DNA of 64,000 bases, from assembly GCF_038432375.1 (NCBI RefSeq), contig NZ_JBCAUS010000002.1:62001-126000 (forward strand), in the 5' to 3' direction. A program made the translations under genes and the position numbers. This document shows positions 23,139 to 44,880 of this stretch, one piece after another. The notes beneath the pieces were generated by a model. The model made no database searches. It was not told the origin of the DNA and saw only the letters and a program-made list of their open reading frames with translations. The stretch's first letter is position 1, and the number at the start of each line of letters is the position of its first letter. The DNA is from Methanococcoides sp. LMO-2 (lineage in GTDB: Archaea > Halobacteriota > Methanosarcinia > Methanosarcinales > Methanosarcinaceae).

Positions 23139-25412
23139 ATGCAAATTCAATGCAGGAAGATCAATGTTACTGGGGTAGTGCAGGGTGTTGGCTTTCGCCC
23201 GTTCGTATATCATATTGCGACAGAGAACGGACTCTGTGGGTATGTGAAGAACACAGGAAATGATGTAGAGATAGTCGCAGAAGGTGAAATAGAGGATATC
23301 GAACATTTTCTCCACGAGCTACAGAGCAAAAGACCTCCGCTGGCATCTGTTGAGCAGGTAAGAACGAAAGTTTCCCGTGTATCGGGCTTTTCCGATTTCT
23401 CTATACTTGACAGTGAACAGGATGAATCTGTCAGGTCCATTATCCCACCTGACACTGCTATCTGTTCTGATTGCCTGCGTGATATGTATGATAGTAAGGA
23501 CAGGCATTTCCATTATCCTTTTACGTCCTGTACAAACTGCGGGCCGAGATATTCAATGGTAAGTTCTCTTCCTTTTGACCGGAAAAATACCAGTATGGCT
23601 GAATTCCCCCTCTGCTTGGAATGCAGTTTAGAGTACAAACTTCCGTCTGACAGAAGATTTCATGCACAGGCCACTTGTTGTCCGAATTGTGGGCCTGTAC
23701 TTTCACTCACCAACGAAAGCGGTGATGTCCTTGCATCTGGACATGATAGCATTGTCAAATGTGGTGAACTCATAGACGATGGATCAATTGTTGCGGTTAA
23801 AGGATACGGGGGTTTCCATCTTGTCTGTGATGCCACTTCAGACAGAGCGGTCTTGAAGCTCAGGGGTTCCCTAAACCGTCCTGCACAGCCTTTTGCGGTG
23901 ATGGCGAAAGATGTTGAGAATGCATCTTCTTTTGCTTGTATCGATGCAGAAGAGAGTTCTATGTTACAAAGCAGGCAGCGTCCAATCGTTGTGCTGGATA
24001 AAAATGATGAGTTTTCACTATCCGATCACACTGCTCCTGGTCTGCACAACATCGGGGTAATGCTACCTTATTCAGGCACACATCACCTTCTGTTAGACCA
24101 TACTGATTCGGATGTTTACGTGATGACATCTGCAAATCTTCCGGGTCTCCCTATGTTGATCGATAATGAGGAGGCATTGTTATATCTCGATAAGATAGCA
24201 GATTATTTCCTGTTTCATAATTATGCTATCGGGAACAGAACCGATGACTCCGTCATCAGACTTGTTAATGGCAAAAAAGCTTTCATAAGACGCTCCCGTG
24301 GTTTTGTACCTGAGAAGATAGAGCTTCCGTTCCCGATAGATCCAGCGATCGGTGTGGGTCCCGAACTGAACACCACCGTTACGCTGGCAAGGGACAACAG
24401 TGCATATGTTTCCCAGTATATCGGGAACACAAGGCATTTTGAGACCGCTCAGTATCACAGGAAGGTTGTTTCCAATTTAGAAAGGTTGACAAAGATCACC
24501 CCACAGCGATGGGGTTGTGACATGCATCCGGATTTCAATACCACCCATTTCGCACAGGAGCAAGGTGGGAATAACACGGTCTTCGTGCAGCATCATTATG
24601 CACACATCGTTTCGCTAATGGTGGACAATCTTTTGCCAGCCGATTCAAGTATCATTGGCATCGCTCTTGACGGTGCAGGATACGGGGAAGGTGGAGCAAT
24701 ATGGGGTGGAGAGATCCTTGAAGCCACGTATTCCGGTTATGAAAGAGTTGCTCATCTTATGGAGCAGCCGATGCCGGGCGGGGATATGGCTGCGATATAT
24801 CCTTCACGTATGGTTCTGGGGATGCTGCATGATGTTCTTGAGGCGGAAGAATTGAGGGAACTTCCTCTTTGGTTCAAGCATGGTGAACCGGAACGCGACA
24901 TTGTATTGCAGCAACTGGAAAATGGTGTGAACATTGTCAGAACGAGCAGCTTCGCAAGGGTGCTTGACAGTGCTGCAGCACTTCTTGGTGTCTGCCATTA
25001 TCGCAGTTACCAGGGTGAGCCTGCAATGAAACTGGAATCAGTTGCAAGAAAAGGTGTGCATGATCTGGATCTGCCTGTCGTTTGCAAACGAGGAGTGCTT
25101 GATACTACCAGCCTTTTGTATGGTCTGTACGAAAGGCTTGATTCACATGAAGTTTGTGATCTGGCATATTCCATAGAAGATGCACTTGCCGTTGGGGTTG
25201 CCGAACTTGCTGTGTCAGCAGCTAAAAAAAGGAACATTGATGTTATAGGGCTCAGTGGGGGAGTTGCATACAACGAGCACATAATATGTCGTATCTGTGA
25301 AGTTGTAAAGGATTCGGGGTTTGAATTCCTTACTCATAACAGAATTTCGTGTGGGGATGGCGGTGTTTCCCTGGGGCAGGCAGTTGTTGCAGGATATAGT
25401 GCTTTTACCTAG
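23139..25412 (+). CDS. hypF: Carbamoyltransferase HypF
   Basis: The 757-residue enzyme makes the thiocarboxamide on HypE from carbamoyl phosphate and ATP, the source of the cyanide ligands. Domains run in the usual order. An acylphosphatase-like domain (GVVQGVGFRPFVYHIA, about 10-25) comes first. Two zinc fingers follow (CSDCLRD with SCTNCGP; CLECSLE with CCPNCGP), then a YrdC-like domain with KGYGGFHLVCDAT, and a Kae1/TobZ-like C-terminal domain with VQHHYAHI, ALDGAGYGEGGAIWGGE and LSGGVAYN. It is separated from the other hyp genes but belongs to the same hydrogenase region. Its stop is TAG followed immediately by TGA, a notable backup in a probable pyrrolysine user. Confidence 0.96.
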   Translation: MQIQCRKINVTGVVQGVGFRPFVYHIATENGLCGYVKNTGNDVEIVAEGEIEDIEHFLHELQSKRPPLASVEQVRTKVSRVSGFSDFSILDSEQDESVRSIIPPDTAICSDCLRDMYDSKDRHFHYPFTSCTNCGPRYSMVSSLPFDRKNTSMAEFPLCLECSLEYKLPSDRRFHAQATCCPNCGPVLSLTNESGDVLASGHDSIVKCGELIDDGSIVAVKGYGGFHLVCDATSDRAVLKLRGSLNRPAQPFAVMAKDVENASSFACIDAEESSMLQSRQRPIVVLDKNDEFSLSDHTAPGLHNIGVMLPYSGTHHLLLDHTDSDVYVMTSANLPGLPMLIDNEEALLYLDKIADYFLFHNYAIGNRTDDSVIRLVNGKKAFIRRSRGFVPEKIELPFPIDPAIGVGPELNTTVTLARDNSAYVSQYIGNTRHFETAQYHRKVVSNLERLTKITPQRWGCDMHPDFNTTHFAQEQGGNNTVFVQHHYAHIVSLMVDNLLPADSSIIGIALDGAGYGEGGAIWGGEILEATYSGYERVAHLMEQPMPGGDMAAIYPSRMVLGMLHDVLEAEELRELPLWFKHGEPERDIVLQQLENGVNIVRTSSFARVLDSAAALLGVCHYRSYQGEPAMKLESVARKGVHDLDLPVVCKRGVLDTTSLLYGLYERLDSHEVCDLAYSIEDALAVGVAELAVSAAKKRNIDVIGLSGGVAYNEHIICRICEVVKDSGFEFLTHNRISCGDGGVSLGQAVVAGYSAFT

Positions 25413-25724
25413 TGAGCATTTCAATAATAAATTTTGATCATTATTTAATTTTAATCTTTTAGCTAGTTGCCAACATCTGTCTGATTAAATTCACAAATGA
25501 TTCTGCTAACCCAAAAACTATTTACCCTATTAACATGTCTAACGCAATCAATCGACTGCATTTAAAAAATTAGCAATCGGTGATGGAGCCCGTGGAAATT
25601 AACTCATCAGTCATCTGATCTGTTGGATATGGTCTTTGATAGCCACAGGTTTCGTCCATGTGTCCTGAGTCATTTCTATGTCGGTCTGATGCTTTTTTTC
25701 GCTTTCGTGCTTCATGATTAAAAA
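25413..25724. other. Intergenic region between hypF and sulP
   Basis: It is A+T-rich at first, then mixed. A 34-codon minus-strand frame (ATG at 25715, TGA at 25611) encodes a hydrophilic Lys/His/Gln-rich peptide but has no ribosome binding site, so I do not call it a gene. Pyrimidine-rich stretches are visible. No RNA gene is apparent. Confidence 0.4.
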
Positions 25725-41901: not shown

Positions 41902-42048
41902 GAGTTAAGGTGGGGTGGTTATGGTACTTATAGGGGGAGGTGGGATGAATGATTTACTTTTGTTGTTTTGTATAGAGAAGGTTATGATATTTATTTAATA
42001 AATAAATTAAAGAACCTTGTAACCATATATTTACAGGGGGTAAAGATA

Positions 42049-42846
42049 ATGCCATTTGAACCTAGGTTATGGGATTCAAATTTAATTACAAGAATCGATA
42101 AATTCCTCAACACTATAAATATTGATGAATGGTATAAGAAGTATGATTGGAATAATGATTCTTGGAATAATGGTTTTCCTGATATTTTCGAACTTGAAAT
42201 GATCATTGGTGAGGCAGTTAAAAATAAATCTTTAACTGTAAACCACATTATAAAAGTAGCTAAGTGGGGAGGCAACAACCGTAGAATTGAATGTGATGGT
42301 ACTATAGATGTGCCGATTTATGATGGACATAATATCGCAAAGTGGGTTGAAGAGGAGCCGGAAAGATACATTGATGATATTTGTTCTCACATCAAGTACT
42401 TTGGACCAACGTATGGGAGTAAATTGCTTCGTTTTGCTCTTCCTTCTGAATATGGTGCAATTGATACAAGACTTGTTAGGGTTTTTGGGAGTTGTGATGA
42501 TTTTAAGAACTGCATTAATTTATTGAACCTTAAAGCGTCTCATCAAAATAAAGAGAAGCGATGGTCTATTGCTAAAAATAAATCCCAATGGCCAAGTGAA
42601 TACGGAACTTGGATTAATGTCTTAAGATACATTGCAAAACAAATGAATGAAAATGATGTGAATTGTCCACATCCAGACTGTTTTGTTGAGACAAAACTGC
42701 GTGATAATGGTTTATGGTGTTGTGCAGATGTCGAGATGGCTCTTTTTTCCTATGCCAGTTATTTTATTAAAACTAAAAATAAGGGGTCTGCAAATGGATG
42801 TGCTTACGAATCAACAAGAAAAAATTACTCATTATCTAATTACTGA
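42049..42846 (+). CDS. OGG/HhH-like hypothetical protein, island gene 1
   Basis: I recognise this 265-residue protein only loosely. It is helical and aromatic-rich. A segment KYFGPTYGSKLLRFALPSEY followed by GAIDTRLVRVFG resembles the region of OGG-type helix-hairpin-helix glycosylases where a lysine precedes an aspartate-containing helix. The end has CPHPDC and WCCADVEMALFSYAS. There is no signal peptide. The start ATG 42049 has a strong GGGGGT ribosome binding site 8 bases upstream. Its last 53 bases overlap the next gene, so translation is coupled. Codon use is A/T-ending. Base-excision or DNA-binding function is an inference. Confidence 0.65.
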   Translation: MPFEPRLWDSNLITRIDKFLNTINIDEWYKKYDWNNDSWNNGFPDIFELEMIIGEAVKNKSLTVNHIIKVAKWGGNNRRIECDGTIDVPIYDGHNIAKWVEEEPERYIDDICSHIKYFGPTYGSKLLRFALPSEYGAIDTRLVRVFGSCDDFKNCINLLNLKASHQNKEKRWSIAKNKSQWPSEYGTWINVLRYIAKQMNENDVNCPHPDCFVETKLRDNGLWCCADVEMALFSYASYFIKTKNKGSANGCAYESTRKNYSLSNY

Positions 42847-43555
42847 AGGGAAATTTTTTTGGGATAATGATGAAATTGATAATTTCACGAATGACCCAGA
42901 AGCAGATAAATTAGTGAAAAATATTTATGATTTTCCTCATGCATTTGTGCTTGCTGCTGTAATGGATAGAGGAATTGATGCGGAAAGAGCTTGGGCAATA
43001 CCCTACGAAATTTCAATTAAAATTGGGAATTTCGATTTCTCTAATCTTAGAAATCTATCTTTAATGGATATTGAGAAACTTTTTAATGATAACAAACTGC
43101 ATCGTTATAATAATAAAATGGCAGACTGCTTTTTCAGTGCAGTGCAAAAAATTGATACTGATTATGAGGGTGATGCATCAAAAATTTGGGATGCAAATCC
43201 AAAAAGCGCTATAGTAGTTAGACGTTTTCTTGAATTCAAGGGTATAGGTGTCAAAATTGCAACAATGGCGACTAATATGCTTGCAAGAGATTTCAAGATT
43301 CCGATGGCTGATTGTAATGGCATCGACATATCTCCAGATGTTCAGACAAAAAGGGTGTTTAAAAGAATTGGTCTCATTAGGAAGAATTCTAGTGATGAAG
43401 AATTACTTTATTCTGCCAGAGCTATTTACCCTTAGTATCCTGGAATTATGGATTATCCTTCTTGGAAAATCGGTAGGGATTTTTGTAGACCAAAAAATCC
43501 ATATTGTAAATCTTGTCCATTGAATGGGTGCTGTCCAAAAATAATTGAATTGTAA
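42794..43555 (+). CDS. Endonuclease III-like DNA glycosylase with in-frame TAG (candidate pyrrolysine)
   Basis: From ATG 42794 (AAGGGG upstream) 213 codons run to TAG at 43433-43435, then 39 more codons continue in phase to TAA at 43553. Before the TAG lies an HhH glycosylase core: FKGIGVKIATMATN (148-161), with a lysine (154) where endonuclease III has its catalytic Lys, and SPDVQTKRVFKRIGL with an aspartate (182) in the catalytic-Asp position. After the TAG comes WKIGRDFCRPKNPYCKSCPL, then NGCC. This is the exact C-x6-C-x2-C-x5-C [4Fe-4S] loop of that family (C231, C238, C241, C247). Termination at TAG would remove the whole cluster. I infer amber decoding as pyrrolysine, giving 253 residues; a nonsense mutation is the alternative. 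Confidence 0.8.
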
Positions 43556-43576
43556 TCCTGTAATTGTGGTGATATT

Positions 43577-44212
43577 GTGACTAATTCAGATGATAAGATA
43601 CTGATAATTGGATCCTGCACGAGTTCAAAAAAGTATTCCCCACTTAACGAAGCAACTGAGGATGAACTGGATGATCCCATTTTAAGAAAGCAGAAAGAAG
43701 AGGAACTAAACAGATACACAGTTGATGCACTTGATATGTATCAGGGAAAGCAGCACACATTAACATGTGAAGCATTCAAATTGTTGCAAGAACAAGGCAA
43801 AAATGTTGATTTCTGGATTATTTCTGCTGGATATGGTCTTATAAAATATGATACAAAAATTATTCCTTATGATGTGACTTTTGCTCAAAAAAGCAGGAAA
43901 TACGTAAAAAGTAGAGGAAAACTACTCAACATTCCCGATGATTTTGACAAATTGATAAAACACTACGATAAAGTAATTTTGCTTCTGGGAAAAGAATACC
44001 TTCTATCACTTGATTTTCCGCGGCCTATTGATGAAAATGTTGAAATAATAGCCATGGGGGGAAAGGAAACTAAAAAGTTGCTTCCAGACCAAAAGAACAT
44101 TCATTTTATCCCTGCTGGAAAGGAGGAAGGGAAAAAGTATGGTGCAGCATTGATTTACCTGAAAGGTGTTATTCTCAAAAAGATGGTTGAAGAACACCAA
44201 TTTGATCTTTAA
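43577..44212 (+). CDS. DUF6884/YaaA-like protein, island gene 3
   Basis: The 211-residue soluble protein starts at GTG 43577 with GGTGAT close upstream. It has CTSSKKYSPLNEA near the N-terminus, a helix with MYQGKQHTLTCEAFKLLQEQ, then WIISAGYGLIKYDTKIIPYD. The C/S-x-SKK start plus the ISAGYGL...PYD pattern is what I associate with DUF6884 and YaaA-related proteins, some of which occur with DNA-modifying systems or respond to oxidative DNA damage. The function here is unknown. It lies 21 bases after the glycosylase gene and 23 before the GIY-YIG gene, so the four genes look like one operon. Confidence 0.65.
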   Translation: MTNSDDKILIIGSCTSSKKYSPLNEATEDELDDPILRKQKEEELNRYTVDALDMYQGKQHTLTCEAFKLLQEQGKNVDFWIISAGYGLIKYDTKIIPYDVTFAQKSRKYVKSRGKLLNIPDDFDKLIKHYDKVILLLGKEYLLSLDFPRPIDENVEIIAMGGKETKKLLPDQKNIHFIPAGKEEGKKYGAALIYLKGVILKKMVEEHQFDL

Positions 44213-44235
44213 ATTTGATATTCGAAGGTGTTTAT

Positions 44236-44880
44236 ATGAGTGATAAGTGTAGGTTATTACATCAATATTTCAATGGGATGGAGAAATTGAGTTTTCCTTT
44301 CGCAAATAAGGATATTCCTCAAAATGGGATATACATTCTTTTCGAAAAAGGAGAACATGCACACGATACTGATAGGATTGTACGGGTTGGTACCCATACT
44401 GGTGAAAACCAGTTAAGGTCGAGACTTCGCCAGCACTTCCTCAAAGAAAACAAAGATCGAAGTATATTCCGAAAAAATATTGGCCGGGCTCTTTTAAACA
44501 AAAAAGATGATCCTTTTCTTGAACATTGGGAATTGGATCTAACAACCAGAAAAGCAAAAGAGAAATACAATTTTTCTATTGATCACGATAAACAAAAAGA
44601 AATAGAAAACGAAGTCACGAAATATATACAGAACAATTTCAGTTTTGTTGTTTTTCCGGTTGTTGAGAAAGACAAAAGACTTGAAATTGAACAGAAACTG
44701 ATATCGACAATATCTCTATGCAGTGAATGTGCCCCTTCAGAAGATTGGTTTGGCCATTACTCTCCTAAAAAGAAAATACGCGAAAGTGGAATGTGGCTTG
44801 TTAATGGTTTGTATAAGGAACCGATGTCAGAGAAGGATATGGAATGGTTAATGGAATTACTAAAAATAAGTAAGAACTAA
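44236..44880 (+). CDS. GIY-YIG-like nuclease, island gene 4
   Basis: The 214-residue protein shows a GIY-YIG-type start: NGIYILFEKGEHAHDTDRIV with the GIY part, then VRVGTHTGENQLRSRLRQHF, where VGTHT stands for YIG and is followed by the catalytic-arginine region. The helical KNIGRALLNK and a later IENEVTKYI may contain the metal-binding glutamate. The C-terminal third, with CSECAPSEDWFGHYSP, is unlike common members. It probably cuts DNA. AAGGTG precedes ATG 44236. As the last gene of the island it may cleave DNA opened by the two glycosylase-like proteins; this is inference. Confidence 0.75.
   Translation: MSDKCRLLHQYFNGMEKLSFPFANKDIPQNGIYILFEKGEHAHDTDRIVRVGTHTGENQLRSRLRQHFLKENKDRSIFRKNIGRALLNKKDDPFLEHWELDLTTRKAKEKYNFSIDHDKQKEIENEVTKYIQNNFSFVVFPVVEKDKRLEIEQKLISTISLCSECAPSEDWFGHYSPKKKIRESGMWLVNGLYKEPMSEKDMEWLMELLKISKN

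Follow-up and report, generated by a model that had tools for sequence, protein, structure and literature searches.

Does the TAG codon inside a DNA glycosylase gene of Methanococcoides sp. LMO-2 end the protein, or is it read through as pyrrolysine? The gene lies in a 64,000-nucleotide stretch of DNA, referred to here as the window. Its reading frame begins with ATG at position 42794 and runs for 213 codons to a TAG at 43433-43435, which is followed by 39 in-phase codons and a TAA at 43553-43555. Besides the TAG, the whole 253-codon frame contains no further stop and no frameshift. The four cysteines of the C-x6-C-x2-C-x5-C loop are part of the product only when translation continues past the TAG. 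The original prediction described an endonuclease III-like gene split by TAG on the 5' side of its Fe-S loop, and the frame, the cysteines, Lys154 and Asp182 were all confirmed. The features of the gene are:

42794-43555, + strand: HhH-GPD DNA glycosylase with Fe-S loop, 253 residues with TAG readthrough and 213 without
43253-43255, + strand: Lys154 (in FKGIGVK), the catalytic Lys position of bifunctional HhH glycosylases, Lys in 40 of 42 homologues
43337-43339, + strand: Asp182 (in SPDVQTKRV), the catalytic Asp position, Asp in 41 of 42 homologues
43433-43435, + strand: in-frame TAG, codon 214, occupied by Glu, Asp, Lys and others in homologues
43448-43450, + strand: in-frame ATG (Met219) 3' of the TAG, at which a 35-residue peptide might start, though this is unlikely
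43484-43534, + strand: Fe-S loop C231-x6-C238-x2-C241-x5-C247, every Cys conserved in 41-42 of 42 homologues

The product is predicted to be an Fe-S HhH glycosylase of the endonuclease III/MutY type. No match to the Pfam HhH-GPD family (PF00730) was found. Two NCBIfam models match below their cut-offs, TIGR03252 (HhH-GPD-type base excision protein) over residues 31-166 and mutY over residues 146-247, the latter spanning the TAG. Solved endonuclease III chains found with phmmer also align across the TAG (residues 179-247). An AlphaFold2 model built with 43 sequences has a mean pLDDT of 94.1, and the closest solved folds are endonuclease III-DNA complexes (1orn, 1orp), then MutY, with the thymine-DNA glycosylase 1kea at rank 19. 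The endonuclease III-like identity proposed originally is thus upheld by the HhH-GPD fold of the model, by Lys154 and Asp182, and by the Fe-S cysteines. Endonuclease III, MutY and the Mig.Mth thymine-DNA glycosylase share the fold, the Lys and Asp positions and the Cys spacing with the window glycosylase, but its identity to these solved structures is only 15-19%. Judged from its sequence, the protein represents a divergent family of its own near TIGR03252. Its likely role would be the excision of bases from DNA, either for repair or against foreign DNA, and the full-length enzyme is presumably active.

Homologues in genome contigs were recovered with an alignment as the query, a single-protein query having given no matches. 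The close ones (42-57% identity) come from Desulfobacula, WOR-3, Bacteroidetes, Clostridia, Nanoarchaeota, Methanosphaera, Methanobrevibacter, one Methanosarcina and others, a phylogenetic scatter that fits horizontal transfer. In about 42 close homologues, drawn from many phyla, the frame stays open across the TAG site, and nearly all of them have the four Fe-S cysteines; the Fe-S tail therefore belongs to the family. The exceptions are the loci L064, L079, L084 and L085, in which there is an internal stop, the gene is split or the contig end is reached. Tail-less homologues ending at the site of the TAG, which the original prediction had named as evidence against itself, were not seen among the ~42 close homologues.

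The tail has not decayed. Identity to the Methanosarcina copy is 57% before the TAG and 57% after it, and each of the other homologues is likewise about equally similar to the two parts. Because of this equal similarity, and because endonuclease III chains align across the site, the open tail is not a product of chance. In a leave-one-out comparison of profile scores (tail minus head) the glycosylase ranks 19th of 43, and the relative terminal branch length of its tail ranks 29 of 40, inside the usual range. No orthologue closer than ~57% identity was found, so these tests rule out an old loss only.

The alignment suggested with the original prediction as a check for TAG or a sense codon at residue 214 revealed no TAG in 45 aligned homologues; TAG at this codon was found in the present genome only. 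The residue is Glu in 29 homologues, Asp in 6 and Lys in 3, whereas G, S, Q, A, T, I and R occur once each. The corresponding codons are mainly GAA and GAG, with AAG found twice, and a single-base change of GAG or AAG gives TAG. The model places residue 214 in a short loop between the helices 201-211 and 216-229, where the side chain of pyrrolysine should be easily accepted. A functional (catalytic) pyrrolysine of the kind present in MtmB, MtbB and MttB is not indicated, the TAG position not being conserved among the 45 homologues, and a variable, mostly Glu, position gives no sign of a function for pyrrolysine.

The glycosylase is the second gene of a tight co-directional set of four (41968-44880). 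The other three genes are:

41968-42846, + strand: OGG-like gene with a weak match to PF21790 (E 0.006, below cut-off)
43577-44212, + strand: DUF6884/DpdC-like/PDC-M57A-like gene, matching PADLOC PDC-M57A (1e-8) and also DpdC
44215-44880, + strand: GIY-YIG-like gene, matching PADLOC PDC-M57B (E 1.9e-102)

The OGG-like gene, for which the ATG at 42049 is a more likely start than the listed TTG, overlaps the start of the glycosylase by 53 bases. The PADLOC candidate PDC-M57 consists of adjacent A and B genes, and the two genes directly downstream of the glycosylase match this pair. No PADLOC model matched the glycosylase or the OGG-like gene, and the two were not seen beside other M57B homologues within a flank of ~1.5 kb. 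None of the other glycosylase homologues examined was surrounded by the four-gene cluster. When the neighbours of ~45 homologues were clustered, no partner proved general, and only some Clostridia had a few genes in common; the glycosylase is therefore no obligate member of a multi-gene system. There is no match to it in phage records and there are only distant partial matches in plasmid records, and therefore no annotated mobile carrier.

The G+C content of the island is 33-35%, compared to 48% on its left and 43% in the gene on its right. Neither the glycosylase nor the OGG-like gene was found in the sister Methanococcoides genomes compared. The sirtuin gene adjoining the island is 98% identical in the sister genome G019, where the genes after it look like DNA methyltransferase genes and one of McrB type; G018 and G020 contain other inserts. 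The window segment 41962-44896 is thus a variable spot beside a conserved sirtuin gene, at which the sisters carry other, partly restriction-like genes. From sequence and composition, the site is a hotspot of variation whose content is defence-like, occupied here by a low-GC, genome-specific island that appears to have been acquired. A repair or an antiviral function of the glycosylase is plausible. Defence is suggested only by the island and by the candidate-defence neighbours, and a defence role for the glycosylase itself would be a guess; its homologues elsewhere are without fixed partners.

Readthrough as pyrrolysine would depend on the pyl genes. The genes for tRNA-Pyl, PylS, PylB, PylC and PylD are found together on contig C6 (B, C and D being named by position and sequence), and the set that the original prediction required, pylT, S, B, C and D, is complete. 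The genome also contains two mtmB genes with one TAG in each. The sample for TAG use covered 852 kb, or 37% of the genome; its ORFs were called by a crude method that overlooks TAG codons close to gene starts. The stops of the 656 ORFs obtained were TGA in 346 cases, TAA in 294 and TAG in 16. Four of the TAG-ended ORFs look spurious, and 9 of the ~12 plausible genes are cut, not ended, by the TAG. These nine conserved genes are the two mtmB genes, the glycosylase and the following six:

L101:13363-15243, + strand: IorA-type protein, in-frame TAG
L106:16936-18426 (G000:C2:916936-918426), - strand: biotin carboxylase (pyruvate carboxylase type), TAG at codon 412
L109:11944-13356, - strand: aldehyde dehydrogenase, in-frame TAG
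L109:16356-17996, - strand: GAF histidine kinase, in-frame TAG
L110:16554-17723, - strand: FrhB-type protein, in-frame TAG
L135:17209-19923, + strand: second histidine kinase, in-frame TAG

Pfam domains span the TAG in five of the non-methyltransferase genes, namely biotin carboxylase, aldehyde dehydrogenase, the FrhB type and both kinases. Possibly genuine TAG ends in the 852-kb sample are limited to pylB, HypF and a nucleotidyltransferase. In HypF (window 23139-25412), a TGA stands immediately behind the TAG (25410-25415), an arrangement expected where TAG is a leaky stop. The pylB gene (L093:7052-8164) ends in TAG and has a 42-codon open extension that overlaps pylC. A match with one TAG is present in 11 of 11 Methanococcoides genomes, and a pylB gene ending in TAG is already on record (PMC2933860).

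Two of the interrupted genes could be followed through related genomes. Codon 412 of biotin carboxylase is TAG in six species (G000, G018, G019, G020, G024 and G025), whereas four others have ATT (Ile) or GTT (Val); differences before the codon are mainly synonymous, and the sequence after it is conserved. Codon 208 of IorA is TAG here and TGG (Trp) in a sister at 96% protein identity, while G024 has a TAG of its own at codon 23. The change from TGG to TAG in IorA means that sense-to-TAG changes happen and are kept, and the two genes together indicate that TAG codons arise singly and persist. TAG thus serves as a sense codon in this clade. As a separate observation, codon 412 of biotin carboxylase is a better candidate than the glycosylase for a long-kept pyrrolysine in central metabolism.

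The probable answer to the opening question is that a full-length Fe-S HhH glycosylase is made by pyrrolysine readthrough of the TAG, the new residue being an incidental rather than a functional or regulatory replacement. The candidate pyrrolysine protein proposed originally retains readthrough as its best reading, given the complete pyl genes and the homologous coding sequence on both sides of the TAG. Codon 214 was formerly probably GAG (Glu), or possibly AAG (Lys), and one base change would have created the TAG. The tRNA-Pyl and PylS would decode TAG as pyrrolysine in many genes of this Methanococcoides, presumably including the glycosylase. The ribosome would insert pyrrolysine into the variable loop between two helices and continue into the Fe-S loop; some chains may end at the TAG, readthrough being perhaps partial. 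The replacement of Glu by pyrrolysine was probably near neutral. One of many TAG codons in the genome, it looks like a tolerated single-base substitution and not a special switch. The TAGs kept in biotin carboxylase and IorA are the strongest evidence for readthrough in the glycosylase, as far as sequence comparison goes, and are contrary to a decoding limited to growth on methylamine.

The alternative that survives best, although it is unlikely, is that a nonsense mutation arose recently and broke the gene, or that the assembly has a wrong base and there is no TAG. The TAG is found in one genome only, on an acquired island that is absent from the sister genomes and at a site where loss is common. 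The intact tail speaks against old loss alone, and with the nearest orthologue at 57% identity a recent event would look identical. However, TAG is regularly sense in this organism, and thus a change from GAG to TAG would act as a missense change; furthermore, the gene is otherwise undamaged and its catalytic and Fe-S residues are intact.

The original prediction went further, supposing that the enzyme is translated through the TAG only in pyrrolysine-replete cells growing on methylamine, so that the Fe-S form would be tied to diet. This is highly improbable, even though a bacterium, Acetohalobium arabaticum, is reported to regulate the meaning of UAG (PMC8211752). In this genus TAG also interrupts genes of central metabolism, biotin carboxylase in six species, and they would be cut too; these housekeeping TAGs make decoding appear general. 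Residue 214 is unremarkable, and the glycosylase has no methylamine gene near it and no other tie to methylamine. That pyrrolysine is functional at 214, or that UAG decoding gates the island glycosylase by pyrrolysine status, has a very slight probability; if true, it would constitute an island-borne DNA enzyme responsive to the expanded genetic code. The tail had also been said to have no start of its own, which proved incorrect in view of the ATG at 43448, five codons 3' of the TAG. A 213-residue protein associating with a separately started 35-residue Fe-S peptide is nevertheless scarcely credible, since no clear ribosome-binding site precedes this ATG, Met219 occupies an ordinary hydrophobic position of the family (I, M, L, F or V), and in the model a start there would cut the final helix 216-229.

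Readthrough of the TAG would have several consequences. Standard gene calling would give a truncated glycosylase that lacks the Fe-S loop. The proteins predicted to carry pyrrolysine gain a DNA glycosylase encoded on a likely defence island, and the case suggests that drift to TAG is open to an acquired gene once its host reads TAG as sense. In a recipient that lacks pyrrolysine, a TAG-bearing gene would be non-functional, and the expanded code may therefore bar the sharing of island genes.

Kivenson et al. (Science, 2025) have reportedly proposed that every TAG codon stands for pyrrolysine in some archaea, M. burtonii included. The present genome resembles these archaea in being a Methanococcoides in which TAG is rare and mostly internal to conserved genes. 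No cis element (a PYLIS-type RNA structure) appears to be required for UAG decoding (PMC8211752), and in M. acetivorans an amber codon that had been introduced was read through at 20-30% (PMC2933860). A neutral route to TAG and pyrrolysine has been described previously (PMC3639795; PMC2933860). The closest precedent is the tRNA-His guanylyltransferase Thg1 of Methanosarcina acetivorans, whose in-frame UAG is attributed to neutral evolution (Heinemann 2009, as cited in PMC2933860). According to that secondary account, Thg1 and the glycosylase are alike in being non-methyltransferase genes of pyl-bearing methanogens, with a TAG in one species, a sense codon in homologues and an apparent tolerance of pyrrolysine. 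The glycosylase is a predicted case on an acquired island, whereas Thg1, in the same account, was tested in the laboratory.
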